A stretch of 32,211 bases of DNA from a virus. Positions 2,787-30,334 of this stretch are shown in pieces (position 1 is the stretch's first letter; every line of letters starts with the position of its first letter). The notes beneath the pieces are model-generated. The model was not told where the DNA came from. It made no database searches and saw nothing but the letters and a program-made list of their open reading frames with translations. The stretch lies in IMG/VR virus record IMGVR_UViG_3300032282_002471, positions 1 through 32,211 of that record, one strand, 5' to 3'. A program made the position numbers and the translations under genes.

Positions 2787-5700
2787 ATGGCTCAACAACA
2801 ACAATCAGTTTTAAGGGTTTATAATAATTCAACTAGCGGTTATACCTATCTTGAAACTTATTCGTCTGTTCCAATTAAAGTAGTAAGAAGCTACGCTGAA
2901 TTACAAGACATTGGCAAACGAAATTCTGATTTAATTATTAGCGTTCAAGTACCAGGTTCAAAGAAGAACAATGCTTTCTTTGAATCATTCTTTGACGTTG
3001 ATGTAGCAACACTATTTTTCAATGCTACCAAGAAAGTAGATTGTGATGTGTTGATTAATGACGAAGTTTATTTTCGTGGATACCTTAGATTAAATAAAGT
3101 ATCCGTATTAAACAGTAAAGTAGAGTATGATATATCGTTATATAACTCCGTTGGTAACTTATTTGGTGACATAGGTAATAACTTACTGAAAGATTTGAAT
3201 TATGCCGATGAAGAATATACATTTAATCATACATTTGATGTATTTACGGTTGCAGATACATGGGGATATTCTAATTTTAGTTTAGACCAGGAAAAACCTG
3301 CACCATTCTTCTACCCTATTGTACATAATGGTTATTTGTACTCAGGAGATACTGTTAATTTTACAGGTGGTACATTACAAGACCAAACTAGACTATATAC
3401 ATCTACTGCACCTATTGGTGCTTATGGAACACTAGCTGATTTTAAGACTGCTGGCGGTAAAGAGTATAGAATTAATACTCCAACACAAGGATTGATAAAT
3501 AATCAGTTAAAACCTGCTCTATCTATGTGGAACTTGTTGAAATTAATGTTCAAAACCTATGGTTATAGCATTAAATCAGACTTTTTTAACACTCCATGGA
3601 TGAAAAGTTTGTACATGTATGGGTATTTTAGCTCACCAAATACAAAATTCACATTCACAATTCAGTCAATTCAGATTTTACCATTAGAAGGTGTGTCCAT
3701 TTTCTTTGCAAATGATGGCGGTGGAAACATCAGTCCTATTGTTGTTACAAGAGATACAGGCATTCCTTGTTATGCAGCTGATGATATTGGTGTTACTTTG
3801 GTCTATGAAGACCCAGGTTTTCCTGATTATGTGATAGAAAACTTCCCTATTTATGCTGGAACTTCTGGTGCAACCTTTAATATTGGATTGAATTTCATTA
3901 CAGGATACGTAAATACTCCACAAGTTGGTGTTGCAAGTTCTATAAAATACTTCCCAGTTCCAGTAAATACGCCAGTTCCTTTTGTAGATGGCAGCGAAGT
4001 TAATTTTAGTACCGTTGTCGACCCACTAATTAAACAGATTGACGTATTATCTTCAATAGCTAAGAAGTTTAATTTAGTATTTGTTCCTGACCCTGATGTT
4101 AAGAACCAAATCATTATTGAACCATTCTCATATTACTTTGGGACTGGTGATGTATTAGATTGGACTGACAAATTGAGTTATGATAAAGGATTTACGGTTG
4201 AACCAGCATTGAACTACATTGAAAGTAGTTTAGAAGTTACAGATTCAGAAGATGGTGATTATGGTAACCAACAATTTAAGGATAGAAACAATAGAATTTA
4301 CGGACAGTTAAATCAACAGAACCCTACTGACTTTAAGTCTCAGGAAAAGAGAATTACAACCATATTCTCCCCTGAAATTATCAGACAATGGGACACGGCA
4401 GATCAACCCGGTAACGGAGGTATCAAGATACCACTAGGAATTAACTATGCCGGTTCATCTAACACATCTTCAAACGGAGATAGTGAAGTAACTAACTGGA
4501 CATATACTGGTATTAAGACAAAGCCTAAGTTATTCTTTAATTTAGGTGCAGCTAACGTATTCATTGACCAATTAGGTGAAGTATATAACAATTTAGCTAT
4601 ATATAAATCGTATTTTGTATGGCTAACTAACTCCAATGACACTAATCATTATGGATTAGAGACCATTCCAATCATTTCACACACGATGCCGATTGGTATG
4701 GCTGACCAATATAAGATTAATAACGACAGTGCATCTATATTATTCAACTCAGAAGAAGCGACTTATGTAGATGTTTTAACATATAATGCTTATACAGAAA
4801 ACGATTCGTATGAATTATTCTACGCAAATCGTGTGAATAACCTGTATAATGCAGACACAAGATTTATTTCAGGTAATTTTTATCTAAAATTAAATGAATA
4901 TGCTAACTTAAAAGCTAATGACCTAATCAAAATTAAGGACCAATACTTTATTTGGAACAAGATTGATGGTTACAATTTAACTAATACAGAATTAACAAAC
5001 GTTCAATTAGTTCAAATTAATAATAACCCATCAGTTTATCCAACAAGATATTTCAAATATCAGTATTGTGACCAAACTGGTTATAGTTTTAAGTTAAAAA
5101 CAGATTTTACAAATCCAAATTTACTTTATACCTTATTTGGTTGGAGTATCTTATATGATTATAGTTGTGGTATCGTTTATGGTACAAACAAACCAGAAAA
5201 TGGTTATGTTTCAACTTTATTAGATATTCGTGGTGGAATATATTATTATGTTCCTTACAAAATCATTGAAATAACCGAAGATGAATACAATAATAGCGGT
5301 TATTATGATTGGACAGAAGATACGATGATGCTTCACATATTCTCAATTGAGAAGGGTCCATTTGGAACAAGAATGCCATCATTCTGGTATGGTCCTTTAT
5401 TTATTTATCAAGGATTGAATTTATTTACAAGTTGTAGTAATTTTTATTCAGTGGCTTCTACATACGGAATTAAAATAGGACCATCGACTTACTATGGACC
5501 TGTTATTTTACCGTCTCCTACACCAACTATAACCCCTACAATGACGGTTACTCCGTCTGCTACACCAGCACCAGTTAATGAATGTGTATGGGGTCAAGAT
5601 AATTTAAGATGGAATGCTAATGGAACATATTGGGGTTCTTGTGATACAGTAGCTCCGACGCCTACAATGACGCCGACTAATTCACCTACTCCTAGTATTA

Positions 5701-6920
5701 CTCCGACATTGACGGCTACGCCAACTGGTACTCCTTCGGTTACCCCGACTATTACAAATACTCCTACTATGACTAATACACCAACTCCTAGTGCTGAACC
5801 AGCATGTTTTAGTATTGGTACAGGATTTAATAATGGTGTTTGGGGAGCTGTTCAACAAACTGACAGTAAAATAATTCCTTATGGTGGTTTTACAATATAT
5901 AATTATATACCTAAAAATAGATTTGTTAGAATAAAAACTAATGGTATAATTGATACAACATATCCAATTGGTAATGGATTTACTATAAGTGGTAATACTG
6001 TTGCATTTGTAACTAGTGGAGCTTTACAAAGTACTGGTAAATTTATTGCTGTTGGAGCATTTAATCAATATGATAATGTTACATCAAAAGGTATTGCTAG
6101 AATAAATACTGATGGTACTTTGGACACATCATTTAATGGTGGCAATCCTTTATTTGGAGGAGCTATGACTGATGGTGGAGTTGTATATGTAGATAGTTCA
6201 GATAAGATTTATGTTGGTGGAGATTTTAATTCTTATAATGGTTCAACTGCTTATGGTTTATTAAAATTAAATTCAGATGGTACTTTAGATAATACATGGT
6301 CTTATTCAACAACAGGTTTTAGTAGAATATTTCGTATAGGACAACAATCTAGTGGTAAAATGATAATTTCATGTGGTGATATATATTCATCAACAACAGT
6401 TAATTACATAGCTAGATTAAATACTAACGGTACTGTTGATACAACATTTAATAGTGGCGGTTCAGGATTTGGTAATTGTTGTACAGATGCTATTGCAGTT
6501 CAATCAGACGATAAAATAATTGCAGCAAATAGGTCTAAAATATATAACGGAACATCTGTGGATTATATTTTAAGATTAAATTCAAATGGTTCAATAGATA
6601 ATACGTTTGCAACTGTTGGTACAGGTTTTAATAATATAGTTACAAGATTATTAATATTACCATCTGGTAAAATAATGGTTGCCGGATTCTTTACATCGTA
6701 TAATGGAACTTCTGTTAATAGATTGTGTAGATTAAACTCAGATGGTTCATTAGACACAACATTCAATACTGGTGGTTCAGGATTTAATAATTTAGTATAT
6801 GGAATAAATTTATTAAATGATGGTAATTTACTTATCAGTGGTTATTTCACTACATATAATGGAACAACTGCAAATAGAATAGTAAAATTATCACTAAATG
6901 GTACTTTACTTAACTGCTAA
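2787..6920 (+). CDS. Large tail/baseplate protein fused by Pro/Thr linkers to a delta-60 beta-propeller
   Basis: The product has 1377 residues. Residues 1-~905 form a tail hub-like region; near the start it carries D-V-L-I-N-D-E-V-Y-F-R-G-Y-L-R, typical of Bacteroidota phage tail-associated proteins. Two Pro/Thr linkers follow (about 909-929 and 955-1006), separated by a ~25-residue module with the signature W...W...Y-W-G-S. Residues ~1007-1377 hold about seven delta-60 (DUF5122-like) repeats, each with an R-L-N-x-D-G-x-L-D-x-T-F-type strand and a G-K-I-x-V-x-G-x-F-x-x-Y-N-G segment. Seven repeats would close a seven-bladed beta-propeller. The arrangement suggests a virion protein displaying a flexible tethered propeller, plausibly for adsorption; that role is inferred. 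A 23-bp gap with an AATATTTATT tract follows the gene. Confidence 0.6.
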   Translation: MAQQQQSVLRVYNNSTSGYTYLETYSSVPIKVVRSYAELQDIGKRNSDLIISVQVPGSKKNNAFFESFFDVDVATLFFNATKKVDCDVLINDEVYFRGYLRLNKVSVLNSKVEYDISLYNSVGNLFGDIGNNLLKDLNYADEEYTFNHTFDVFTVADTWGYSNFSLDQEKPAPFFYPIVHNGYLYSGDTVNFTGGTLQDQTRLYTSTAPIGAYGTLADFKTAGGKEYRINTPTQGLINNQLKPALSMWNLLKLMFKTYGYSIKSDFFNTPWMKSLYMYGYFSSPNTKFTFTIQSIQILPLEGVSIFFANDGGGNISPIVVTRDTGIPCYAADDIGVTLVYEDPGFPDYVIENFPIYAGTSGATFNIGLNFITGYVNTPQVGVASSIKYFPVPVNTPVPFVDGSEVNFSTVVDPLIKQIDVLSSIAKKFNLVFVPDPDVKNQIIIEPFSYYFGTGDVLDWTDKLSYDKGFTVEPALNYIESSLEVTDSEDGDYGNQQFKDRNNRIYGQLNQQNPTDFKSQEKRITTIFSPEIIRQWDTADQPGNGGIKIPLGINYAGSSNTSSNGDSEVTNWTYTGIKTKPKLFFNLGAANVFIDQLGEVYNNLAIYKSYFVWLTNSNDTNHYGLETIPIISHTMPIGMADQYKINNDSASILFNSEEATYVDVLTYNAYTENDSYELFYANRVNNLYNADTRFISGNFYLKLNEYANLKANDLIKIKDQYFIWNKIDGYNLTNTELTNVQLVQINNNPSVYPTRYFKYQYCDQTGYSFKLKTDFTNPNLLYTLFGWSILYDYSCGIVYGTNKPENGYVSTLLDIRGGIYYYVPYKIIEITEDEYNNSGYYDWTEDTMMLHIFSIEKGPFGTRMPSFWYGPLFIYQGLNLFTSCSNFYSVASTYGIKIGPSTYYGPVILPSPTPTITPTMTVTPSATPAPVNECVWGQDNLRWNANGTYWGSCDTVAPTPTMTPTNSPTPSITPTLTATPTGTPSVTPTITNTPTMTNTPTPSAEPACFSIGTGFNNGVWGAVQQTDSKIIPYGGFTIYNYIPKNRFVRIKTNGIIDTTYPIGNGFTISGNTVAFVTSGALQSTGKFIAVGAFNQYDNVTSKGIARINTDGTLDTSFNGGNPLFGGAMTDGGVVYVDSSDKIYVGGDFNSYNGSTAYGLLKLNSDGTLDNTWSYSTTGFSRIFRIGQQSSGKMIISCGDIYSSTTVNYIARLNTNGTVDTTFNSGGSGFGNCCTDAIAVQSDDKIIAANRSKIYNGTSVDYILRLNSNGSIDNTFATVGTGFNNIVTRLLILPSGKIMVAGFFTSYNGTSVNRLCRLNSDGSLDTTFNTGGSGFNNLVYGINLLNDGNLLISGYFTTYNGTTANRIVKLSLNGTLLNC
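5511..5804 (+). repeat. Two Pro/Thr-rich linkers around a W-W-YWGS module
   Basis: Bases 5511-5573 and 5649-5804 encode P-T-P-T / T-P-S-x-T-P type linkers, and the ~25 codons between them encode the W...W...YWGS module. Pro and Thr are written with all four synonymous codons in mixed order, so the repeat exists in the protein but not as tandem identical DNA. Confidence 0.8.
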
Positions 6921-6943: not shown

Positions 6944-8428
6944 ATGAGTAGAAAATATATAGGTCAGCTAAACAAAGATAATTTCGTCTATCCCAATTAT
7001 AGGATTGCGGAATACGATACTGAGATTATCCATGACCTAAAAGAAAACCCAGTAACTGGCTCAATTTCGGGGGTTACTATAACACCTAGCGGTACATCAA
7101 TTAACGTTACATTTTCATACAATTGGAATCTAAATGGTGCTGAACCATTCATTAGTGATGCAAATAAGTTAAATGTCTTATCTGTGCATCTAATGACTGG
7201 TACTAAGCAGTATTTTAAGCCGTGGGTATGTATCGGATACGTTGATGACGCAAATACAGCAGCAACAACAGCTTCTGGGACTAAGACTATTACTGTTTTA
7301 CCTTCAATGTTAAATCAAACTTCATTCACAAATGGTACTTACTATTTAGAATTTAGATTGATGAGTAAAAGACAGGTATTACCAGTTCTTGCTCATATTA
7401 ACTTTGTACAACCTAGTCCAACTCCAACACCTAGTGCTAGTGCAGTTCCTCCGGGAGCTTCTCCTACGGCTACGCCTACATTAACTCCAACTAAAACTCC
7501 TGCTGATACTCCAACGGTTACTCAAACACCGACTAATACTCCATCACCAGGTTTAGTTTATTATATTCTTTATAACTGTACAGATAATTTGAATTATAAC
7601 TCAGTTGGTAAGCCATATTTAACATTTAGTAGTGGTGATAGAGTTGTAGATGCTGGTTCAGGAATAAATTATGTAATTTCTGGTGGTACAGATAGAACTA
7701 CAAATCCAGGAGGTGCTTTAATTAATATTACAGCAACAGGTTTATATGGCTGTCCAGGCGGTGGCGCAACCCCTACTCCAACTCCATCATTATTACCAAC
7801 AGGTATTGGCGTTTATACAGGCGGAACTTATTCTAATTCAACAACGGCTTGTGCTGGTGGTGGATACTTAATCAGAAACTGTTATATCGGACCAGGTGAT
7901 ACATTATCTAATGGCGATATTATTTATACAGATAATGCATTAAACTTCCCATTCTCTGGTAATAGTCAGTACTATGTATTCTACAAAGATTCTAACAAAT
8001 GGGCTGGTCAAATCAGTGCAGGTGGTTACGTATCTAACTTAACAGTTTGTGGTGCGGCACCTTCACCGACTCCAACTCCTTCATTAGTAGTTACTCCTGA
8101 TGTTCAATTTTATTTAACATTAGACCCAGGTAACAGTGGCACGCTAGATATTTATACCAATGGTACATTATCAGCAACATTAGATTTTGATGGAGCTAGT
8201 ACAGCAATACACTTAAACCCAGGCGATACATTCTACACAGTAATTACTCAAACAGCAAGGGGAAATAGTGGTCAAAGGGGACAAATAACAATAAATGATA
8301 ATGGTGTTTTATACGAATATACAAATACAACATCAGGACCATTACCTAAATCAAAAACTTCATCAGTAGTTACAGTTGTAGCTGGACATGCTTATGTGGT
8401 ATATGGTTTATGTGGAACATTAATCTAA
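6944..8428 (+). CDS. Modular virion protein with Pro/Thr linkers
   Basis: This 494-residue protein is built as beads on a string. An N-terminal beta-rich head (1-~156) is followed by a long Pro/Thr linker (~157-203), a small Cys-containing domain (~204-273), a short A-T-P-T-P-T-P-S linker, a second Cys-containing domain (~288-370), another S-P-T-P-T-P linker and a final beta-sandwich-like domain (~385-494). The two middle domains each contain a few Cys, Gly and Tyr and may be related. The N-terminal head probably anchors the protein to the virion and the outer beads are exposed decoration or adhesion domains; this is inference. It lies directly before the tape measure gene and starts 4 nt after a TATTTAT heptamer. 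Confidence 0.5.
   Translation: MSRKYIGQLNKDNFVYPNYRIAEYDTEIIHDLKENPVTGSISGVTITPSGTSINVTFSYNWNLNGAEPFISDANKLNVLSVHLMTGTKQYFKPWVCIGYVDDANTAATTASGTKTITVLPSMLNQTSFTNGTYYLEFRLMSKRQVLPVLAHINFVQPSPTPTPSASAVPPGASPTATPTLTPTKTPADTPTVTQTPTNTPSPGLVYYILYNCTDNLNYNSVGKPYLTFSSGDRVVDAGSGINYVISGGTDRTTNPGGALINITATGLYGCPGGGATPTPTPSLLPTGIGVYTGGTYSNSTTACAGGGYLIRNCYIGPGDTLSNGDIIYTDNALNFPFSGNSQYYVFYKDSNKWAGQISAGGYVSNLTVCGAAPSPTPTPSLVVTPDVQFYLTLDPGNSGTLDIYTNGTLSATLDFDGASTAIHLNPGDTFYTVITQTARGNSGQRGQITINDNGVLYEYTNTTSGPLPKSKTSSVVTVVAGHAYVVYGLCGTLI
7412..7552 (+). repeat. Pro/Thr-rich linker
   Basis: About 47 codons of alternating Pro and Thr/Ser/Ala, with mixed synonymous codons. It is the same style of linker as at 5511-5804 and 29348-30023. 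Shorter linkers occur in the same gene near 7768-7800 and 8058-8096. Confidence 0.75.
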
Positions 8429-8444
8429 AAAATTAAACTAATAT

Positions 8445-11378
8445 ATGGCTACTAAAGACATAAATTTTAATATTAAGGTCAATAATAAGGCCCTTGATTT
8501 AACCAAAGTATCGTTCAAAGAGTTTGATAAAATTATCAAACAGGCTAAAGCTGATTTGAAAGACCTTCCTTTAGGTGACCCTAGGTATAAAGTATTGGCT
8601 ACTGATATTAAAAATGCTGAAAAGGCATGGAAAGCAGCCATGCAAAGTCAAAAAGATTTTAAGGATGAAAACGATAAAGGTGAAGCATCTGTAAAATCTT
8701 ATTCTCAACAAATTAGACAAGCTACCAGAGAATTAGTTGATTTAGAAAATCAATTCGGTAAAAACAGTGTTCAATATCAAGACCAAGCGCAAAAGATTAA
8801 AGACTTAAAAGATAAACAAGAAGAATTATCAAGAAGTACGTTAAAGTTTGACGATGCATTAAGTAATATTCCGGGACCTATTGGTAAAGTTGGTTCTTCA
8901 ATGCAACAATTAGAAGTTGTAACTCAGTCTGCTAAATCTGCATTTGGTAGTTTAGCTGCTCAATTCCCAATATTAGATAGTACAATTGCTAAAACTGGTA
9001 TCGGAGCATTAGTTGTATTATTAGGCATATTAGTTGGAGCTGTTGTTAAAGCACTCCAAAGTTCAAAAGCATTTCAAGCAGCATTAGCTGGATTTGGAGA
9101 TGCAATCGGTACAGTATTTGATGCATTAAAACCATTAACAGATTTTATTGTAAAAGTATTTGTTGGAACAATTGAGATTGCTGCTGCTGCAATTGAAGGT
9201 TTAGCTAGCATTTTTGGTGGTGTTAGCAACGGTTTCAAAAAACAATCTTTGGTTTTAGAAACAACAATTAATAGGGATAAAGCAATATTAGATAATTATT
9301 CAACTTTTTTATCTGAACATTATACAAATTTATTAAATTTACAAATCAAATATAATGAAAAGAAAAGAGCAATAATTGATGATGATAAAAGAACAACAGC
9401 AGATAAAAATTCTGAAATACTTGAATTAGATAAAATTTATTTAGTTGAAAAAGATTTATTACAAAAAAAATATGATAAGATAGTAAGAGATAGGAATATT
9501 TCTTTAGAAAAAATTAAAAAAGAAACGACAGAAAAAGGTATTGATAATGATAGATCAAATCAATTACAAAGTTTAAAAAATCAACAAAAATTTGATGAAG
9601 ATTTAGCCGATAGTGAAATTAAAGCAGCTAATGGTAGAATCATCAGAATGAAAAAACTTCAAACGGATATAGAAAAAATACAAGGTCAAGGTTCAACAGA
9701 ATTACAAAAACAAAGAGCTGAAGCGTTAGTTGCGTTAAAACAATCAATTGAAGATGAAAAAACACTTGTTGAATTTTTACAAGACCAAAAAAATAGTATA
9801 TATGAAGGCGGTAATGCCGATTTATTAAAATTACAAAGAGAATATAATAGAGAAGATATTGCTTTAGTAAATGAACGTAGTAATGCAACACTACAAGCAA
9901 CTACTGAATTAATTAAAGAAGAAAATGCACGTAATTTACAAGCTTCAAAAGATGAATTAGCAATTCTAATAGAAACTCATCGTAAAGAAATAGAAGATGC
10001 TAAAATAGCTGGTGTAACATTAGTTAATCTAAAAGAAAAACAATCCGCTGAAACAAAATTAGCATTAGAAAAAATTAGATTAGCTCAATTAAATTTTGAT
10101 GCTAATGAATTACAAATGGTAATTGACCAACAAGATAGAATTGCAACAGAAGCAGGTAAAGGCACTGAACAATATTTCAAAGCAAGAGAAGAGGCTATTA
10201 CAAAGGGTTTTGAAAAGGAATTTATGTTAGCGGATGGTAATGCTAATAAACAACAACAAGCCAGAACTAATCAATGGAAAGCCATACTTGATTTAGATAA
10301 AGAAAAAATACAAACTCAAATTGAATTAAGAACAAAAGAATTAGATGGACTTTATGAAAACTCAATGGCTTATTTCAATAAAGAAAGAGAAATTGAATTA
10401 AAAAATTATGAACTTCAACAAAAAGAATATCAGAATAATGCTGATATGTTGGAAGCTTTAAGAGTTGAGCATTTCAAAAAAATGAATATGATTGACAAAG
10501 CTCAATTAGATTATGCTTCACAATTTTTACAAAGACAAGCTGATACTGAAAGAAAACATTGGATTGATTTATACGCAGATTTAAGAGCAGCAGAAGATAT
10601 GAATTATAAAGCTAAACTTAAAGCTGCTGGTGATAATGCACAAGAAATTGAATTAATTAACAAAGAGCATCGTAAGAGAATGAAAGAGATTCTTAATGAT
10701 GAGATTCAAGATTTTGCAGATTTAGCTACAAAAAACTTAGATATGTTAGCCAATTTGTCAAATGCAATTGGTAGCATATATGAGATGGAAGCTAATAACA
10801 CCAAAAACTCTATGGAAGATAGAAAAAAGGCGTTTGAGCAAAACAAAAAGTATCAAATTGCTACCGCTATTTTATCTGCTGCTTCTGGTGTTATTCAAAT
10901 CTTAACTCAACCATCTACTTTACCTTCACCATTTGACTGGATTGTTAAGGTAGGTAACGCATTAGCATTAGGTGTTATGACTTATGCTCAAATCAGAAAG
11001 ATTCAAAGCACTGAGTTTAATGCTGGTACAAGTGGTTCTGGATCAGCATCCAAATCTATGGGTAAAAACTATGGTGATGGTGGTATGATTGAAGGAAAGA
11101 GACATGCCGATGGTGGTGTTCCAGTTAATGCCGAAGGTGGAGAAGCTATAATGACAAGAGGTGCCGTTACTATGTTTGGTCCATTGCTTTCAATGTTAAA
11201 TCAAGCTGGTGGTGGTGTATCATTCAAACAAGGTGCTGTGGGACAAGCTAACTATGACAATCCAAAAGTAGCAAACTCACCAACAGAACCACAAATAATA
11301 AAAACATACGTTGTCGAAAGTGAATTATCATCAACTCAGCATCGTATGGCTAGATTAAAAGATTTATCAACATTATAA
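8445..11378 (+). CDS. Tape measure protein
   Basis: This 977-residue protein sets tail length and is threaded through the tail tube. The first ~130 residues are Lys/Asp-rich helices. A strongly hydrophobic segment follows near residues 183-205 (I-G-A-L-V-V-L-L-G-I-L-V-G-A-V-V). A very long Lys/Glu/Gln-rich coiled-coil runs from ~270 to ~770, and a second hydrophobic stretch lies near 803-850. The C-terminal part has the Gly-rich D-G-G-M-I-E-G and H-A-D-G-G-V-P-V segments and A-E-G-G-E-A-I-M-T-R-G, characteristic of tape measure proteins. A ~977-residue helical protein would fit a tail on the order of 120-150 nm if it follows the usual length rule. The probable tail assembly chaperones are not adjacent but near 27.5-28.4 kb. 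Confidence 0.9.
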   Translation: MATKDINFNIKVNNKALDLTKVSFKEFDKIIKQAKADLKDLPLGDPRYKVLATDIKNAEKAWKAAMQSQKDFKDENDKGEASVKSYSQQIRQATRELVDLENQFGKNSVQYQDQAQKIKDLKDKQEELSRSTLKFDDALSNIPGPIGKVGSSMQQLEVVTQSAKSAFGSLAAQFPILDSTIAKTGIGALVVLLGILVGAVVKALQSSKAFQAALAGFGDAIGTVFDALKPLTDFIVKVFVGTIEIAAAAIEGLASIFGGVSNGFKKQSLVLETTINRDKAILDNYSTFLSEHYTNLLNLQIKYNEKKRAIIDDDKRTTADKNSEILELDKIYLVEKDLLQKKYDKIVRDRNISLEKIKKETTEKGIDNDRSNQLQSLKNQQKFDEDLADSEIKAANGRIIRMKKLQTDIEKIQGQGSTELQKQRAEALVALKQSIEDEKTLVEFLQDQKNSIYEGGNADLLKLQREYNREDIALVNERSNATLQATTELIKEENARNLQASKDELAILIETHRKEIEDAKIAGVTLVNLKEKQSAETKLALEKIRLAQLNFDANELQMVIDQQDRIATEAGKGTEQYFKAREEAITKGFEKEFMLADGNANKQQQARTNQWKAILDLDKEKIQTQIELRTKELDGLYENSMAYFNKEREIELKNYELQQKEYQNNADMLEALRVEHFKKMNMIDKAQLDYASQFLQRQADTERKHWIDLYADLRAAEDMNYKAKLKAAGDNAQEIELINKEHRKRMKEILNDEIQDFADLATKNLDMLANLSNAIGSIYEMEANNTKNSMEDRKKAFEQNKKYQIATAILSAASGVIQILTQPSTLPSPFDWIVKVGNALALGVMTYAQIRKIQSTEFNAGTSGSGSASKSMGKNYGDGGMIEGKRHADGGVPVNAEGGEAIMTRGAVTMFGPLLSMLNQAGGGVSFKQGAVGQANYDNPKVANSPTEPQIIKTYVVESELSSTQHRMARLKDLSTL

Positions 11379-21392: not shown

Positions 21393-22151
21393 CTATCTTT
21401 TTTGATAAGGTCGTCTATTATTAGCTTGTTGAATCGCAGTAGCCCATCTCAAATTACCGGGTTCATAGTTACCATCATTATTAATTCTATCCAATGAATG
21501 ACCTTTTGGTCTATGTCCAAGATTTTCTAAAATCCATGTCTTAAATCTAATCCAATCTCTAAAATAGTCACAAACTTTGATACCACGACCGCCATAATTA
21601 TGATATTTAATGTAATTTGGATTATGGCATCTAGTTACCATGGTACTCCAAGTAGTATATAAATAATAAAATTCAGAACCCCTAACAGCATCATAGTGAA
21701 TACCCATTCTTTCTGAATGTAATTCAACCCTAAAACAACCACAAGATGATGTGGCACCTTTAATTATTGATAAAAAATCGGCGACACCTTTATTGCCACA
21801 GTCACATACATAATTAACTCTTCTTCTACAACTAAATATTTTATTATACTTTCCTTTACGTGGTTCAGCTTCACTTAAAATAGTTAATTTATTAATCTTT
21901 TTACCAATATAATCTTCAATCTTATGTTTAATTGATGCTTCGCTTACATTCTTGTCTCTTATACAGCCACAAGATGTTGATAATCCAGCTTTAATATTTT
22001 GTAAATAATAATCTTTTATTTTACCGCAGTCACATTGAGCTTTTACTCTTTTCATTTTGTAACCTTGTTTGTTAAGGACTGGTTCTACTTCTGCTAGAAT
22101 TTTCAAAGAATTTATCTTTGCTCCGATTGGTGTTTCTTTTGCTACTCCCAT
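21393..22151 (-). CDS. HNH homing-type endonuclease with two Cys4 DNA-binding repeats
   Basis: The start at ATG 22151 (M-G-V-A-K-E) sits downstream of a consensus promoter, giving 252 residues. Residues ~12-64 and ~85-140 are two copies of one domain (K-I-N-x-L-x-I-L-x-E-x-E-P ... C-D-C-G ... S-C-G-C), with C40/C42/C61/C63 and C116/C118/C137/C139 probably binding zinc. Residues ~164-245 are an HNH nuclease of the phage type (Y-T-T-W-S-T-M-V-T-R-C, H-N-Y-G-G-R-G-I-K-V, H218-S-L-D-R-I-N-N-D-G, then G-N-L-R-W-A-T). Such enzymes are usually selfish homing nucleases; a DNA-processing role is possible. The free-standing C-x-C-x18-C-x-C protein at 26007-26234 carries the same zinc domain. Confidence 0.8.
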   Translation of the reverse strand: MGVAKETPIGAKINSLKILAEVEPVLNKQGYKMKRVKAQCDCGKIKDYYLQNIKAGLSTSCGCIRDKNVSEASIKHKIEDYIGKKINKLTILSEAEPRKGKYNKIFSCRRRVNYVCDCGNKGVADFLSIIKGATSSCGCFRVELHSERMGIHYDAVRGSEFYYLYTTWSTMVTRCHNPNYIKYHNYGGRGIKVCDYFRDWIRFKTWILENLGHRPKGHSLDRINNDGNYEPGNLRWATAIQQANNRRPYQKR

Positions 22152-22174
22152 AATTAATTGTTGGTTTATAAATA

Positions 22175-22206
22175 CAAATATAAATGTTTGCACCAACACA
22201 ACAAAA
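22175..22206 (-). promoter_or_regulatory. Consensus Bacteroidota promoter for the HNH gene
   Basis: On the minus strand TTTTG (22206-22202), a 19-bp spacer and TATATTTG (22182-22175) match the host consensus exactly. The ATG at 22151 is 23 nt downstream of the -7 box. Confidence 0.75.
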
Positions 22207-22474: not shown

Positions 22475-23197
22475 ATGGCAAAACGCTACACAGATAGTGA
22501 AAAATGGGAAGACCCCTGGTTCACTGATTTAACAAATGAACAAAAGTTAGTATGGTTATACCTACTTGACAATTGTGATAATGCTGGATTATGGAAAAAG
22601 AATATTAAGTTATTGAATTTCCATTTAGGTACTACTTTCGTTGAGAGTGATTTATTAGAATTTCTTGATAAAAGAATAATTGAAGTTAATAACAAATGGT
22701 ATATTGAGAAATTTGTTATATTTCAATACGGTACTGATTATTTAATTAATAGTAATAAAGCAGTGCTATCCGCACTGGATAAGTTGGAGATAAATAATAT
22801 TATCAAATTCACAGGAAATTTCATTGAAGTACCTAACAAGTACAAACCATCTGAACCCAAAAAGATAAAAGAATATACCCTATCTATACCCTATCAATAC
22901 CCTATTGATACCCCCAAAGATAAAGATAAAGACAAAGATAAAGATAAAGATAAAGATAAAGATAAAGATAAAGATAAAGACAAAGAGAAAGATAAAGACA
23001 AAGAGAAAGATAAAGTTAAAGAAGAAGACAGGGATAAAGTAAAAGAAGAATTAAAAGATAAAATTCTGGATATATTCAAAGATGAAAAGATATTCAAATT
23101 AATAGAAAAAAGAGATATGGATGCTATTGAAAGAATGGATAAACATATGTTCAATATGCATTATGGTCTTATTAACAAATTAATAAATCTTAAATAA
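22475..23197 (+). CDS. Replication initiator-like protein with internal candidate origin
   Basis: The protein has 240 residues. Residues 1-~125 resemble the N-terminal winged-helix domain of phage replisome organisers (K-W-E-D-P-W-F-T-D-L-T-N-E-Q-K-L-V-W-L-Y-L-L-D-N-C-D-N-A-G-L-W, then L-L-E-F-L-D-K-R-I-I-E-V-N-N-K-W-Y-I and F-V-I-F-Q-Y-G). A Lys-Asp repeat fills ~147-180, and a Lys/Glu-rich helical C-terminus follows; no helicase or ATPase motif is present. It presumably binds origin iterons and recruits host replication proteins. The coding sequence itself contains three and a half 11-bp repeats (22876-22913) followed by a 96-bp AT-rich hexamer array, the arrangement of origins buried in initiator genes such as lambda O. 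It is the first gene of the early plus-strand operon. Confidence 0.65.
   Translation: MAKRYTDSEKWEDPWFTDLTNEQKLVWLYLLDNCDNAGLWKKNIKLLNFHLGTTFVESDLLEFLDKRIIEVNNKWYIEKFVIFQYGTDYLINSNKAVLSALDKLEINNIIKFTGNFIEVPNKYKPSEPKKIKEYTLSIPYQYPIDTPKDKDKDKDKDKDKDKDKDKDKDKEKDKDKEKDKVKEEDRDKVKEELKDKILDIFKDEKIFKLIEKRDMDAIERMDKHMFNMHYGLINKLINLK
22876..22913 (+). repeat. 11-bp iterons, candidate replication origin
   Basis: TACCCTATCTA (22876), TACCCTATCAA (22887), TACCCTATTGA (22898) and a partial TACCC (22909) are spaced exactly 11 bp apart, about one helical turn. Since 11 is not a multiple of three, the copies are read in different frames and give no protein repeat, so the repetition is probably selected in DNA. 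They directly adjoin the AT-rich hexamer array. Confidence 0.65.
22916..23011 (+). repeat. (AAAGAT)16 hexamer array encoding Lys-Asp/Glu
   Basis: Sixteen consecutive units AAAGA(T/C/G), 13 ending in T or C (Asp) at near-identical DNA level and a few in G or C, encode an alternating K-D/K-E tract. The array is very AT-rich and purine-biased on the plus strand. It could serve as an unwinding element for the adjacent iterons. Slippage would change length in steps of two residues without a frameshift. Confidence 0.9.
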
Positions 23198-25970: not shown

Positions 25971-26001
25971 TTTGCTTAGGCTACCGCCAAAATTACGTTT
26001 T
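25971..26001 (+). promoter_or_regulatory. Near-consensus promoter between TerS and TerL
   Basis: TTTG (25971-25974), a 19-bp spacer and TACGTTTT (25994-26001) match TTTG-N19-TAnnTTTG except for the last base. The ATG of the zinc-domain gene is 5 bp downstream, which would give a near-leaderless transcript. Confidence 0.4.
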
Positions 26002-26006
26002 TGACT

Positions 26007-26234
26007 ATGGTAAAAGAACAAAGATTAGAATTAATCCAATTTACGGGCTTCAAAAAGTCTGGACGTAAGTTTTATAAGACCGCATTATTTCAGTGCAGCT
26101 GTGGTGGCACAAGAGAAGCGTACTGGCATAATGTGCAATCTAACAGGACAACATCTTGTGGATGCAAAGACATAGCACACGCAAAAGAATTACATAAGTA
26201 CAAGAAAGTATATGGCGGATATAAATCTAACTAA
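26007..26234 (+). CDS. Free-standing C-x-C-x18-C-x-C zinc domain, probable remnant of a homing endonuclease
   Basis: I chose the ATG at 26007 rather than the TTG at 26001, giving 75 residues. C30/C32 and C51/C53 (Q-C-S-C-G-G...T-T-S-C-G-C) have exactly the spacing of both repeats in the HNH enzyme at 21393-22151, and the preceding R-L-E-L-I-Q-F strand also corresponds. No HNH nuclease residues remain. The gap between TerS and TerL is a common home for HNH genes. Either the nuclease domain has been lost, or this is a stand-alone DNA-binding protein. The 3' end overlaps the TerL start by 23 bp. Confidence 0.6.
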   Translation: MVKEQRLELIQFTGFKKSGRKFYKTALFQCSCGGTREAYWHNVQSNRTTSCGCKDIAHAKELHKYKKVYGGYKSN

Positions 26235-27540
26235 GAGACAAACGGTAGCATGGAAGTATCTATTCGATGATACAACTAATGAAGTATGCTTCGGTGGATC
26301 CGCCGGAGGCGGTAAGTCTATGCTTGCATCTCTGTGGCTTATGACAATATGTCTAAAATATCCTGGAATAAGAACATTATTAGGACGTACCACATTATCA
26401 TCCCTTAAACAAACATCACTTAATACTTTATTCGAAGTACTTAAAATGTCTGGGCTTCAAGCAGAAGTGCATTACAATTACAATGGTCAGTCCAATACAA
26501 TTACATTCCAGAACAAATCAGAGATTATCTTAAAGGACCTGGAGTACAAACCTTCTGACCCTAACTTCGATTCACTAGCAGGTCTGGAAATTACAGCAGC
26601 AGTTATTGAAGAAGCTTCACAAGTAACAAGGACAGCATATAATATTGTTAAGTCCCGTATTCGTTTCAAGTTAAATGAGTACAACTTAATTGGTAAGATA
26701 CTAATGACTACCAACCCATCACAAGGGTTCTTAAAGAAAGAGTTTTACTTACCTTACGTAGAAGAACGATTAGAACAGAACAAACAGTTTGTACCTAGTC
26801 TTCCACTTGACAACCCACACTTACCACAGTCTTATCTTAACATGCTTAATGAATTGCCACCAGAGCAACGTAAGCGTTTGTTATTGGGTGACTGGAACTA
26901 TAATGAAGAACTGGATGCGTTGTTTGATTTTGACAGCATTGCACAATGTGCGTTTAGAGCTGCACCTAACCCATTAGACAAAAAGTATATTAGTATTGAC
27001 GTAGCCAGATTTGGTGGTGACAGTACGGTCATTTGTATTTGGGTTGGTCTAACAGTAGTAGAAATAATAAGATATAATAAAATAGATACGGTTACATTAT
27101 CGTCCCATATAAAGGACTTAATCGCGAAGCATGGTATTCATCCATCACAAGTAATTGCGGACAGTGATGGGGTCGGAGGACCCCTTGTCGATATGCTTAG
27201 ATGTACATCCTTTGTGAATAATGCTAGACCCTTACACGAACAGAACTTTACTAACTTAAAATCACAGTGTTACATTAAACTATCAGACTTGATTAAACAA
27301 GAAAAGATTAGTATTAATATCATTGACCCTGTCATTGTAGATGAACTAACACAACAGTTATTATCAGTTAAATTAAAGGACGTAGAGAAAGACGGTAAGG
27401 TAGGGATTATAGGAAAGGACCAGATGAAGAAAGTCTTAGGTGTCAGTCCTGACTTAGCCGATGCAATGATGTTGCGTATGTATTATGAAGTTAAAAACCT
27501 GAAGAGCACAGGTAGATATTCAATTGCTTTTATAGGATAA
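26212..27540 (+). CDS. terL: Terminase large subunit (packaging ATPase/nuclease)
   Basis: The 442-residue product has all hallmark motifs. Walker A is G28-G-S-A-G-G-G-K35-S; Walker B is A-A-V-I-E133-E134, followed by A-S-Q; the coupling motif is T166-T-N-P. The RNase H-like nuclease carries D263 (S-I-D-V-A-R-F-G-G-D), D317/D319 (I-A-D-S-D-G-V-G-G) and D417 (P-D-L-A-D-A-M-M). It pumps DNA through the portal and cuts the concatemer. Length is usual. It overlaps the zinc-domain gene by 23 bp and is followed one base later by the chaperone gene, not by the portal gene, which lies ~10 kb upstream in window coordinates. Confidence 0.93.
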   Translation: MADINLTKRQTVAWKYLFDDTTNEVCFGGSAGGGKSMLASLWLMTICLKYPGIRTLLGRTTLSSLKQTSLNTLFEVLKMSGLQAEVHYNYNGQSNTITFQNKSEIILKDLEYKPSDPNFDSLAGLEITAAVIEEASQVTRTAYNIVKSRIRFKLNEYNLIGKILMTTNPSQGFLKKEFYLPYVEERLEQNKQFVPSLPLDNPHLPQSYLNMLNELPPEQRKRLLLGDWNYNEELDALFDFDSIAQCAFRAAPNPLDKKYISIDVARFGGDSTVICIWVGLTVVEIIRYNKIDTVTLSSHIKDLIAKHGIHPSQVIADSDGVGGPLVDMLRCTSFVNNARPLHEQNFTNLKSQCYIKLSDLIKQEKISINIIDPVIVDELTQQLLSVKLKDVEKDGKVGIIGKDQMKKVLGVSPDLADAMMLRMYYEVKNLKSTGRYSIAFIG

Positions 27541-27541
27541 T

Positions 27542-28285
27542 ATGATAGAGTTTGAAATAGACGGTAAAGAATACAAGATTAAAGAATACTTATCAGTAGG
27601 TGACTACCAAAAGATATTTAAGGTTAAGGACCTATTTGAAGATGACTACTTCAAAGCTAAGGTAGTGAATTTACTTACAGATTGTCCAATGGAAACATTA
27701 TTAGAAGCTGACAATCATAAGGTAGATTTTTTAGCCACATCAATCTTTGCAATGGTTCCTAAACAACCTGTAGTATTCCAGGATAGATTTACATTAGATG
27801 GCATCGAGTATGGATACCTACCATCATACAAAAAGATTAGCTTCGGTGAGTTTGTCGATTTAGATACGCTACTTACAAAGAAGCCAGAAGAAGTGATGGA
27901 CTACTTGCACATCATATCAGCGATTATGTACAGACCCATCATAAGTAAAAAGTCTAAGCACGATTTTCAGATAGAAAAGTACGATGTGAATACCATGGAA
28001 GAACGAGCAAATCTCTTCCGTGAGAAACTAGATATTAAGCTGACGTTAGGTGGGCAGTTTTTTTTTACACAGTTCGCAAAGAACTATTCGCACTATATCC
28101 CTCTATCTTTGACACAGAAGCTCCAGAGGGAATGGCAAACAGCGAAAATACTGTGGGCGAACAGGAAATGGATATGGAAATATCTTTTGAAAAAAGATTT
28201 GGATGGTATGTCGTCCTCAATAGAGTATCAGGAAGCGATATTACAAAACACACTCAAATCTTTCAGAAAAACGTTATTGAAATAA
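27542..28285 (+). CDS. Tail assembly chaperone-like protein (frame-0 product)
   Basis: This 247-residue protein starts I-E-F-E-I-D-G-K-E-Y-K-I-K-E-Y-L-S-V-G-D-Y-Q-K-I-F. It then contains Y-L-P-S-Y-K-K-I-S-F-G-E-F-V-D-L-D and H-I-I-S-A-I-M-Y-R-P-I near residue 130, and a G-G-Q-F-F-F-T-Q-F-A-K segment at ~170-180. The M-Y-R-P-I and F-F-F-x-x-F features recall tail assembly chaperones of Bacteroidota phages, which coat the tape measure protein. The F-F-F codons are a T9 run that would permit a -1 shift into the overlapping ORF. It is far from the tape measure gene by coordinate, which weakens the assignment. Confidence 0.5.
   Translation: MIEFEIDGKEYKIKEYLSVGDYQKIFKVKDLFEDDYFKAKVVNLLTDCPMETLLEADNHKVDFLATSIFAMVPKQPVVFQDRFTLDGIEYGYLPSYKKISFGEFVDLDTLLTKKPEEVMDYLHIISAIMYRPIISKKSKHDFQIEKYDVNTMEERANLFREKLDIKLTLGGQFFFTQFAKNYSHYIPLSLTQKLQREWQTAKILWANRKWIWKYLLKKDLDGMSSSIEYQEAILQNTLKSFRKTLLK
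28058..28066 (+). promoter_or_regulatory. T9 slippery site for programmed -1 frameshifting
   Basis: Three in-frame TTT codons precede ACA. The -1 frame has a stop at 28036-28038 and is then open to 28359, so T9 lies just inside the window where a shift can join the two frames. Frameshifting would yield a product spanning 27542-28359. Confidence 0.55.
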
Positions 28286-28359
28286 TGAACCAGTTGGTGT
28301 ATCTGATTGAGTACGACCAGGAACAAGCCCGCCAACAAAAAAAAGCAATGAGCAGGTAA
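28132..28359 (+). CDS. Second tail assembly chaperone ORF, probably made as a frameshift fusion
   Basis: The ORF is in the -1 frame relative to 27542-28285 and overlaps it by 154 bp from its own ATG; the frame is actually open from 28039. The conserved-looking part is F-E-K-R-F-G-W-Y-V-V-L-N-R-V-S-G-S-D-I-T, then an amphipathic helix N-V-I-E-I-M-N-Q-L-V-Y-L-I-E-Y-D and a basic C-terminus. R-F-G-W-Y...L...G-D-I is a pattern I associate with a small domain encoded downstream of tail chaperones in Bacteroidota phages. By analogy with lambda G/GT it would be expressed as a C-terminal extension after slippage at 28058-28066. Independent initiation at 28132 is the alternative. Confidence 0.55.
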   Translation: MANSENTVGEQEMDMEISFEKRFGWYVVLNRVSGSDITKHTQIFQKNVIEIMNQLVYLIEYDQEQARQQKKAMSR

Positions 28360-28399: not shown

Positions 28400-30334
28400 A
28401 TGATTCAAATCAATTACAAACAAATCTTAACGTATTTTAGCTCAATTGCTCAACACCATGAGCAGATTAAGTCTTATGGCTTTGGTGATTTGAACCAATG
28501 TACTAACGATATTGTCACAAAACAGGAACCTTTATTTACTAGGTTATATATTGTCCCAGAGAATGTAGAGTTTAATCAGAACCATATTCATTACAACTTT
28601 AATATGTTGGTAATGGACATTATTGATGATGACCTAAGCAATCAAAAGGAAGTAATGAGTGATACATTTGCTATCATTACAGATATTTGGACCGTATTTT
28701 GGCAGTCATATACTGAACAGTACGGTGATTTTTCACAGATTATTGTTGGTGACTGGGAACCTACTGTTGTTCCATTCTTAGAACGTTTCGATACAGTTGT
28801 TGGTGGATGGAATATGCATATTAAAATGTCTGCTCCATTTGACTACAATAGTTGTAATTTACCTATTGCAGCTGGTTATAGCTTCCCACAAGACCAATCA
28901 TTTAGTTCTTATAGACAAATTATACAGGACTGGGAAGACTTTGCTGATGCCCACGAACAAATTAAAAGCTTTGGTTATGGTGATGCACCTAATCTGACAA
29001 TGAACATTGATACAGAGAAGGAACCTTTATACCCACGTATCTATTTTATTCCAAAAGATTCTAGGTTAAATCCTAATCATATGCACATTACGTGGGAGAT
29101 TATGGTTGTGGATAAAGTGGATGAAGATTTAAGTAACCAGCAAGACGTTTTATCTGATACGTTAGAAATTCTTAAAGACTTTTATGCTAAGGCATATCTT
29201 TCGGATTATGAAGTTGATTTTGATGCTAACTTATGGCCGTGGTTAGAAAAGACTGATGCGGTATTAGCAGGATGGACAATTACATTAAGTATTACACAGA
29301 AGTTTGACTTTAATAGATGTGTATTACCTATGACTGATTTTGCACAGCCATCTCCTACACCTACTCATACTCCTACTCCGTCTGTAACAGCTACAATGAC
29401 TCCGACTCCGAGCATTGAGCCTACTAGTACGCCTACACCAACGGCTACGCCAGATCCTACAAGTACTCCAACACCTAGTGTAACAACAACTTTAACTGCT
29501 ACTCCTACTGGAACACCAGCAAGCACGCCAGATGTAACACCATCTGCTACGCCTACTCATACTCCAGCAGCAACAAGTACTCCAACATATACTCCTTCGG
29601 TTACTCCGACAGGAACGCCTGCTAGCACACCAAATGCTACAAGCACTCCAACTTTAACGCCTACAAGTAGTCCAACAGGAACACCAGCTATTACTCCAAC
29701 TAATACTGCAACCCCTACTTCTACTCCTACATATACCCCATCTATCACTCCAACAAATACAGTGACGCCAACAGCTTCACCTAAAATTGATAATGGAACA
29801 TGGAGTGGAACTACTCAGTCATGGAGTGGTAATACAAATTATTGGGGAAGTTACTCACCAGTTGCGCCTACGCCAACTCCAACTAGTACGCTTACTCCAA
29901 CACCGAGTATCACGCCAACATTTACACCTACTGCAAGTGTAACTCCAACAAGAACGCCAGCTGTAACAAGTACGCCTACGGTAACTCCTACTGGAACGCT
30001 TACACCTACGCCTACTCCATCATCAGCAGCAAAAACTTGTATTCGTATTCAAACTGGTAATAATGGTGGTGGTGGAAGTAGTTTCTTCACAACATTAGCA
30101 GGTGCTTGTGGATATACAGGTTCGTTACCAACAAACAGGGGAGCATCAGTACCATCTAGTAATACACAACCGGCTATTGGTGTTAGAATATATACTGGTT
30201 CATCTTGTACAACAACTGGTCCATTAGCAGGTGGAAATAAATACACTAAGTTTATATGGCCGAGTAATACAACAGGATATAACGTAATGCAAGTAGATAA
30301 TAACGGATATATAATCTGGTTGGGAACTTGTTAA
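28400..30334 (+). CDS. Virion protein: tandemly duplicated N-terminal domain, Pro/Thr linkers, YWGS module and C-terminal bead
   Basis: The protein has 644 residues. Residues ~15-155 and ~170-313 are a clear tandem duplication: H-E-Q-I-K-S-(Y/F)-G-(F/Y)-G-D, E-P-L-(F/Y)-x-R-(L/I)-Y, N-H-(I/M)-H, D-L-S-N-Q-x-(E/D)-V-(M/L)-S-D-T and a G-W-x-(M/I) strand occur in the same order in both. The domain recalls small tail-terminator or neck-type proteins, without certainty. A ~142-residue Pro/Thr linker follows (from ~317), then a W-S-G...Y-W-G-S module, a second linker (~488-541) and a Cys-containing C-terminal domain (~542-644). The composition suggests a virion-anchored base with a long flexible exposed arm. 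It starts 6 nt after TATTTAT. Confidence 0.5.
   Translation: MIQINYKQILTYFSSIAQHHEQIKSYGFGDLNQCTNDIVTKQEPLFTRLYIVPENVEFNQNHIHYNFNMLVMDIIDDDLSNQKEVMSDTFAIITDIWTVFWQSYTEQYGDFSQIIVGDWEPTVVPFLERFDTVVGGWNMHIKMSAPFDYNSCNLPIAAGYSFPQDQSFSSYRQIIQDWEDFADAHEQIKSFGYGDAPNLTMNIDTEKEPLYPRIYFIPKDSRLNPNHMHITWEIMVVDKVDEDLSNQQDVLSDTLEILKDFYAKAYLSDYEVDFDANLWPWLEKTDAVLAGWTITLSITQKFDFNRCVLPMTDFAQPSPTPTHTPTPSVTATMTPTPSIEPTSTPTPTATPDPTSTPTPSVTTTLTATPTGTPASTPDVTPSATPTHTPAATSTPTYTPSVTPTGTPASTPNATSTPTLTPTSSPTGTPAITPTNTATPTSTPTYTPSITPTNTVTPTASPKIDNGTWSGTTQSWSGNTNYWGSYSPVAPTPTPTSTLTPTPSITPTFTPTASVTPTRTPAVTSTPTVTPTGTLTPTPTPSSAAKTCIRIQTGNNGGGGSSFFTTLAGACGYTGSLPTNRGASVPSSNTQPAIGVRIYTGSSCTTTGPLAGGNKYTKFIWPSNTTGYNVMQVDNNGYIIWLGTC
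29348..30023 (+). repeat. Long Pro/Thr-rich linkers flanking a YWGS module
   Basis: Bases 29348-~29778 and 29861-30023 encode about 195 codons of Pro alternating with Thr/Ser/Ala/Val, interrupted by the W...YWGS module. Codons for Thr and Pro vary throughout, so no long identical DNA repeat exists. Confidence 0.8.

Follow-up and report, generated by a model that had tools for sequence, protein, structure and literature searches.

A probable programmed −1 frameshift and a long dual-coding overlap in a phage gene next to the terminase

Layout of the locus

The window analyzed here is the whole 32,211-nucleotide stretch of the IMG/VR virus record IMGVR_UViG_3300032282_002471. It carries, directly after the gene for the terminase large subunit (TerL), a gene in which a run of nine T's (T9) is followed by two open reading frames. 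The features needed below are the following.

26212–27540, + strand: TerL (PF04466 / phrog_2), directly 5' of the frameshift gene
27542–28285, + strand: frame-0 gene, 247 aa, homologue P12024L_40 / phrog_32199
28058–28066, + strand: T9 run, in the phase CAG TTT TTT TTT ACA
28060–28066, + strand: slippery heptamer T_TTT_TTT within T9, found in 150 of 151 distinct loci
28066–28359, + strand: −1-frame segment after the slip, Y-T-V-R-K ... A-M-S-R, with its stop at 28357–28359
28067–28285, + strand: dual-coding overlap, 219 nt, assessed by parsimony counts by codon position
28132–28134, + strand: internal ATG in the −1 frame, a possible separate start, not kept in all relatives
8445–11378, + strand: candidate tape measure protein (phrog_1293/1506)

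The frame-0 protein consists of an acidic N-terminal domain (residues 1–172), FFF at the slip site and a basic tail of 72 residues. The first-pass annotation of this DNA had read T9 as three Phe codons, and T9 indeed forms three in-phase TTT codons (Phe173–175) of the 247-codon frame-0 ORF. It had also placed T9 20 nt past the last −1-frame stop and counted 107 open −1 codons. The closeness and the openness both hold, with the figures corrected to 19 nt and to 106 sense codons (28039 to 28356), the earlier count having included the stop. As had been claimed, the −1 frame passes the end of the frame-0 gene, by 74 nt; the estimates of about 73 frame-0 residues beyond the slip site and of about 220 bp read twice agree with the 72 residues after the T-run and the 219 nt given here. 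The predicted −1 fusion product has 272 aa and reads ...G-G-Q-F-F-F-Y-T-V-R-K..., and its C-terminus comprises an acidic linker and a conserved (K/R)(F/W)GWY...N-domain, referred to below as the GWY domain.

Several other ORFs of the window have features of their own. The ORF after the frameshift gene (28400–30334) starts with two diverged copies of a domain of about 150 aa, and together with two other tail-module ORFs (2787–6920 and 6944–8428) it contains long T/P-rich low-complexity repeats (SPTPTPTPS...). An XkdF-type protease ORF (PF14550; 11549–13105) has a HAD-phosphatase-like stretch (SIDYDDTLNTSDG) in its middle and also matches a portal C-terminal region. In the early region, the ORF at 22475–23197 bears a long (KD)n repeat near its C-terminal half. 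An HNH-endonuclease-like ORF with CxCG motifs lies at 21393–22199 on the minus strand, and next to the TerL start (26001–26234, plus strand) a 77-aa segment resembles the N-terminal part of that ORF; the pair may consist of a complete homing-type gene and a truncated copy of it.

The conserved heptamer and the probable change of frame

Homologous loci were collected in two ways. The frame-0 protein as query returned ten IMG/VR contigs, each with its T9 phased as in the window and its −1 frame open. More than 200 loci came from using the −1 segment, or profiles built on the individual parts (A1, A3, and A4), as queries, and because the A3 profile covers residues 1–172 only, its matches are unbiased towards the slip site. 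Removal of identical stretches left 151 distinct loci, among them those of the cultured Nonlabens phages P12024L and P12024S; the others have frame-0 identities of 31–100% to the window. A search of genome contigs (possible prophages) found no relative. The first phage match, Flavobacterium phage 2A and its relatives (E about 4), was dropped as a different gene in a different context.

An in-frame T_TTT_TTT occurs at the homologous place in 150 of the 151 distinct loci, some of which were retrieved with patterns that leave the site out. The sole locus lacking the pattern is L230, whose frame-0 ORF is broken upstream. The A4 profile recognizes the −1 ORF in 146 loci; of the four remaining heptamer-bearing loci, two lie on truncated contigs and two belong to the P12024 phages. 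Homologues with neither a T-run nor an open −1 frame had been named beforehand as refuting a frameshift; the opposite is seen, as the −1 frame is open in essentially all. Two loci deserve a separate remark: in L230 (around 3196–3770) the frame-0 ORF is broken, and in L142 (4001–4783) the −1 ORF is cut short, in both cases with T9 intact and probably through a contig indel.

In the 150 loci the codon before TTT TTT is TTT (123), GTT (10), ACT (8), TCT (3), CTT (3), AGT (2), or GAT (1). It is thus not Phe in 27 loci and ends in T in all of them, whereas for Thr, Ser, Val, and Leu in the upstream part of these genes T-ending codons make up 11–36%; the loci are related and so not independent trials, yet several different preceding codons are involved. 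T9 is present in 124 of the 151 distinct loci (window scan), and 13 loci have seven T's only, exactly in the phase T_TTT_TTT and with the −1 ORF kept. In the other long ORFs of the same contigs, T_TTT_TTT occurs in 11 of 204 Phe-Phe pairs and T9 in none of seven Phe-Phe-Phe triplets. Because the first codon varies yet still ends in T, and because 13 loci make do with seven T's, the unit under selection, as read from these alignments, is the heptamer and not T9. The expectation that the T-run would be kept in homologues is therefore correct for T_TTT_TTT and incorrect for T9 itself.

A cultured relative carries the same arrangement. P12024L and P12024S, which were cultured on a marine flavobacterium, carry CTT TTT TTT TAT, with T_TTT_TTT in frame, in the first gene behind TerL; the two ORFs concerned are genes 40 and 41 (38 and 39 in P12024S; phrog_32199 and phrog_38404). 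Their N-domain is homologous to that of the window family (E 3e-11 with locus L158), as is their −1 segment with the GWY domain (E 6e-4), and phrog_32199 is matched by 16 of 19 family members. Unlike in the window, frame 0 runs on for 25 codons after the slip and then ends. The pair is annotated as two hypothetical proteins with the frameshift unrecognized, and the annotated second gene starts late, leaving out roughly 28 residues at the beginning of the −1 segment. The presence of the same heptamer in 150 distinct loci and in a cultured phage rules out an assembly error or homopolymer artefact.

Where translation of the −1 frame begins can be judged from the parsimony changes per codon position, counted on a tree of 63 distinct sequences. 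In the upstream single-coding part, frame-0 positions 1, 2, and 3 change 5.5, 2.7, and 12.7 times per codon; from the slip to the internal ATG of the window, the figures are 4.0, 8.1, and 6.4. Frame-0 position 2, the third position for the −1 frame, is thus the least variable upstream and the most variable between slip and ATG, a pattern that no bootstrap of upstream codons reproduces. The invariant −1 residues in this interval are FFY..R.......P..F. That the −1 ORF is simply an overlapping gene in its own right, 75 aa long from ATG 28132 and perhaps translationally coupled, with the T-run incidental, is highly improbable. In favor of this reading, the window has that ATG, 132 of 146 loci have an ATG before the GW motif, and the P12024L annotators called two separate ORFs. 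Against it, the 21 codons from slip to ATG are under −1-frame selection with F, F, Y, R, P, and F invariant, 14 of the 146 loci have no such ATG, and in at least eight distant relatives the −1 stretch from slip to GW motif contains neither ATG nor GTG nor TTG; the invariant heptamer would also be left unexplained. Because of the −1 signature ahead of the ATG and the relatives without a start codon, an internally initiated gene cannot account for the segment, and the substitution pattern indicates that coding in the −1 frame sets in at the heptamer, with no start of its own.

The frame could also be changed by RNA polymerase slipping on T9, so that the mRNA gains or loses bases and the ribosome is not involved. 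The prevalence of T9, close in length to the 9–10 bp RNA-DNA hybrid (PMC5009743), and the lack of a detectable translational stimulator would suit such a process. Transcriptional slippage is possible for the T9 forms but fits the T7 forms poorly, since those 13 loci keep the exact heptamer phase and the −1 ORF; moreover, the codon that precedes TTT TTT has a variable first and second base and a fixed third, as a tandem-slippage heptamer requires. The 27 non-Phe codons that still end in T and the loci with seven T's point to tandem −1 tRNA slippage, and we regard polymerase slippage as quite improbable.

Stimulatory elements, i.e., a downstream hairpin or pseudoknot or an upstream Shine-Dalgarno sequence, are common but not obligatory at −1 frameshift sites. 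RNAalifold found no conserved downstream RNA structure in 41 sequences (pseudoknot-free models), the single-sequence folding z-scores were at best about −1, and no Shine-Dalgarno-like motif was consistent across sequences. Since neither kind of stimulator is conserved, the frameshift efficiency may be low. In E. coli, U_UUU_UUU is reported to be much less shifty than A_AAA_AAG (PMC5009743).

Programmed −1 ribosomal frameshifting at T_TTT_TTT (28060–28066) is very probably what this locus encodes, with two products, 219 dual-coded nt and, most likely, a lambda-like chaperone role; the first-pass proposal of a probable programmed −1 frameshift is supported by the kept heptamer and by −1 coding from the slip. 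In the proposed mechanism, ribosomes would read from 27542 onward in frame 0 and most would complete the 247-aa protein with its basic 72-residue tail. A fraction would slip back by one base with two tRNA-Phe on TTT TTT and continue with ...F-F-F-Y-T-V-R-K..., which would yield the 272-aa fusion. The 219 nt would thereby encode parts of two proteins, with both tails under purifying selection. That ribosomes do slip at this site, and how efficiently, we infer from the sequences.

Selection on both frames of the overlap

The overlap has a median length of 68 codons, and in the window's group frame 0 extends 68–97 codons past the slip. Relative to the single-coding rate upstream, change at −1 third positions in 51 sequences with the early frame-0 stop falls to 0.63, 0.53 (the linker), and 0.60 across the three parts of the overlap and is back at 1.10 beyond the frame-0 stop. 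By permutation, p is ≤5e-5 in the GWY segment; in the segment from T9 to the ATG it is 3.5e-4. In the 12 sequences with a longer frame 0, the ratio in the columns that follow the early stop is lower, at 0.77, which lies in the expected direction with wide limits. Because −1 third-position change drops inside the overlap and recovers past the frame-0 stop, both frames of the overlap are, on this substitution evidence, under purifying selection. The check for synonymous-site conservation suggested at the outset thus comes out in favor of dual coding, with synonymous change suppressed in both frames. The heptamer, the two frames, and their dual selection can be read in the alignments directly.

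It might still be supposed that the frame-0 tail is non-functional, with frame 0 open by chance and the −1 product alone mattering past the slip. Two observations lend this some weight: K-W-G-W-Y in the −1 frame entails N-G-D-G in frame 0, one base on, so that frame-0 conservation is partly forced, and frame 0 of P12024L stops early. Yet the −1 third positions, all of them frame-0 second positions, are held back across the whole overlap and released past the stop. Moreover, when the −1 protein was fixed and its synonymous codons were resampled, frame 0 reached its actual length without a stop in a mean of 0.2% of trials, and for the window sequence in none of 400. A non-functional frame-0 tail is hence improbable.

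Net charge differs between the two ends: the frame-0 tail carries +8 to +15 (63 sequences) and the −1 tail is mostly acidic (0 to −8), a contrast that is partly a consequence of the code, as a reading shifted one base downstream makes many K codons out of D/E codons. We lean slightly towards a reading in which both C-termini, i.e., the basic frame-0 tail and the acidic linker with the GWY domain, are working parts encoded over the same ~70 codons; the products would then be two complementary chaperone forms, a two-tailed variant of G/GT in which frame 0 was extended by overprinting.

Gene context, probable function, and meaning

Chaperones of the lambda G/GT type are encoded directly upstream of the tape measure gene; their N-domain binds the tape measure and their C-domain the tail tube, and they are absent from the virion. 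The slip heptamer in lambda is G_GGA_AAG. The gene described here resembles lambda gpG/gpGT (Xu/Hendrix/Duda type) in its −1 frameshift, in its shared N-domain with a longer fused C-domain (PMC5009743), and in having both ORFs together in the structural module. It differs in its heptamer, T_TTT_TTT, and in the length of frame 0 past the slip, as the lambda G and T ORFs overlap by 19 nt only, as annotated. It also lies after TerL and many kb upstream of the tape measure gene, and no sequence similarity to lambda was found. The chaperone frameshifts of SEA-PHAGES, used to train PRFect, likewise join two chaperone ORFs by a backward shift; the average slip-to-stop distance of these annotated actinophage chaperones is 26 nt (PMC10885494), as against the median of 68 codons here.

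The frameshift gene adjoins TerL in the window and in P12024L, and it opens a module of same-strand genes extending to the tape measure gene. The order common to the relatives is TerL, frameshift gene, tail genes, tape measure, with the last on the same strand and roughly 12–20 kb downstream of the frameshift gene, not adjacent to it. Searches of Pfam, PHROGs, and PDB sequences gave no tail-chaperone match, and only phrog_32199 and phrog_38404 (function unknown) were consistently above noise.

By analogy, the products probably act like the lambda gpG/gpGT tail assembly chaperones, a role suggested by the shared N-domain, the alternative ends, and the position as first tail-module gene upstream of the tape measure gene. 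A low-ratio frameshift product also fits such a role, as in lambda (PMC5009743). The first-pass assignment to tail chaperone genes thus agrees with the two-ended architecture and the gene order, and finds no match in a chaperone family and no adjacent tape measure gene. Because of that distance to the tape measure gene, the gene is described here as working like the G/GT family and is not filed as a member of it. Alternatively, the frameshift and the dual coding may be real and the products may serve outside the tail, for example in packaging or head completion. The place directly after TerL and the missing family match agree with this, but the same-strand neighbors downstream run into the tape measure gene in the relatives, no other frameshifted pair was seen among the window ORFs upstream of the tape measure gene, and −1 fusions of this kind in tailed phages are typical of tail chaperones (PMC5009743). 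A non-tail role is possible, if rather unlikely. Four points count against our preferred explanation, in which the heptamer makes ribosomes produce two chaperone forms: the low shiftiness of U_UUU_UUU in E. coli, the lack of a stimulator, the lack of chaperone similarity, and the non-adjacent tape measure gene.

Frameshifted tail chaperones as such are already well known. As far as the literature examined shows, the gene family, the invariant T_TTT_TTT, and the dual-selected overlap of ~70 codons are new; long overlaps elsewhere are possible. With this finding, widespread aquatic phages whose hosts are probably Bacteroidetes gain a family of probable −1 frameshift genes that is both large and unannotated. 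The PRFect predictor takes slip-to-stop length as a feature (PMC10885494), and predictors that rely on a short distance may miss this family because its overlap is so long. The locus also provides a quantified natural case of overprinting, in which ~70 codons are selected in two frames, and since the cultured relative P12024 has an overlap of only 25 codons, the growth of the overlap is open to study. If −1 slippage by ribosomes is what takes place, one gene apparently makes two proteins with different ends at an invariant T-run, and about 220 bases are read twice.
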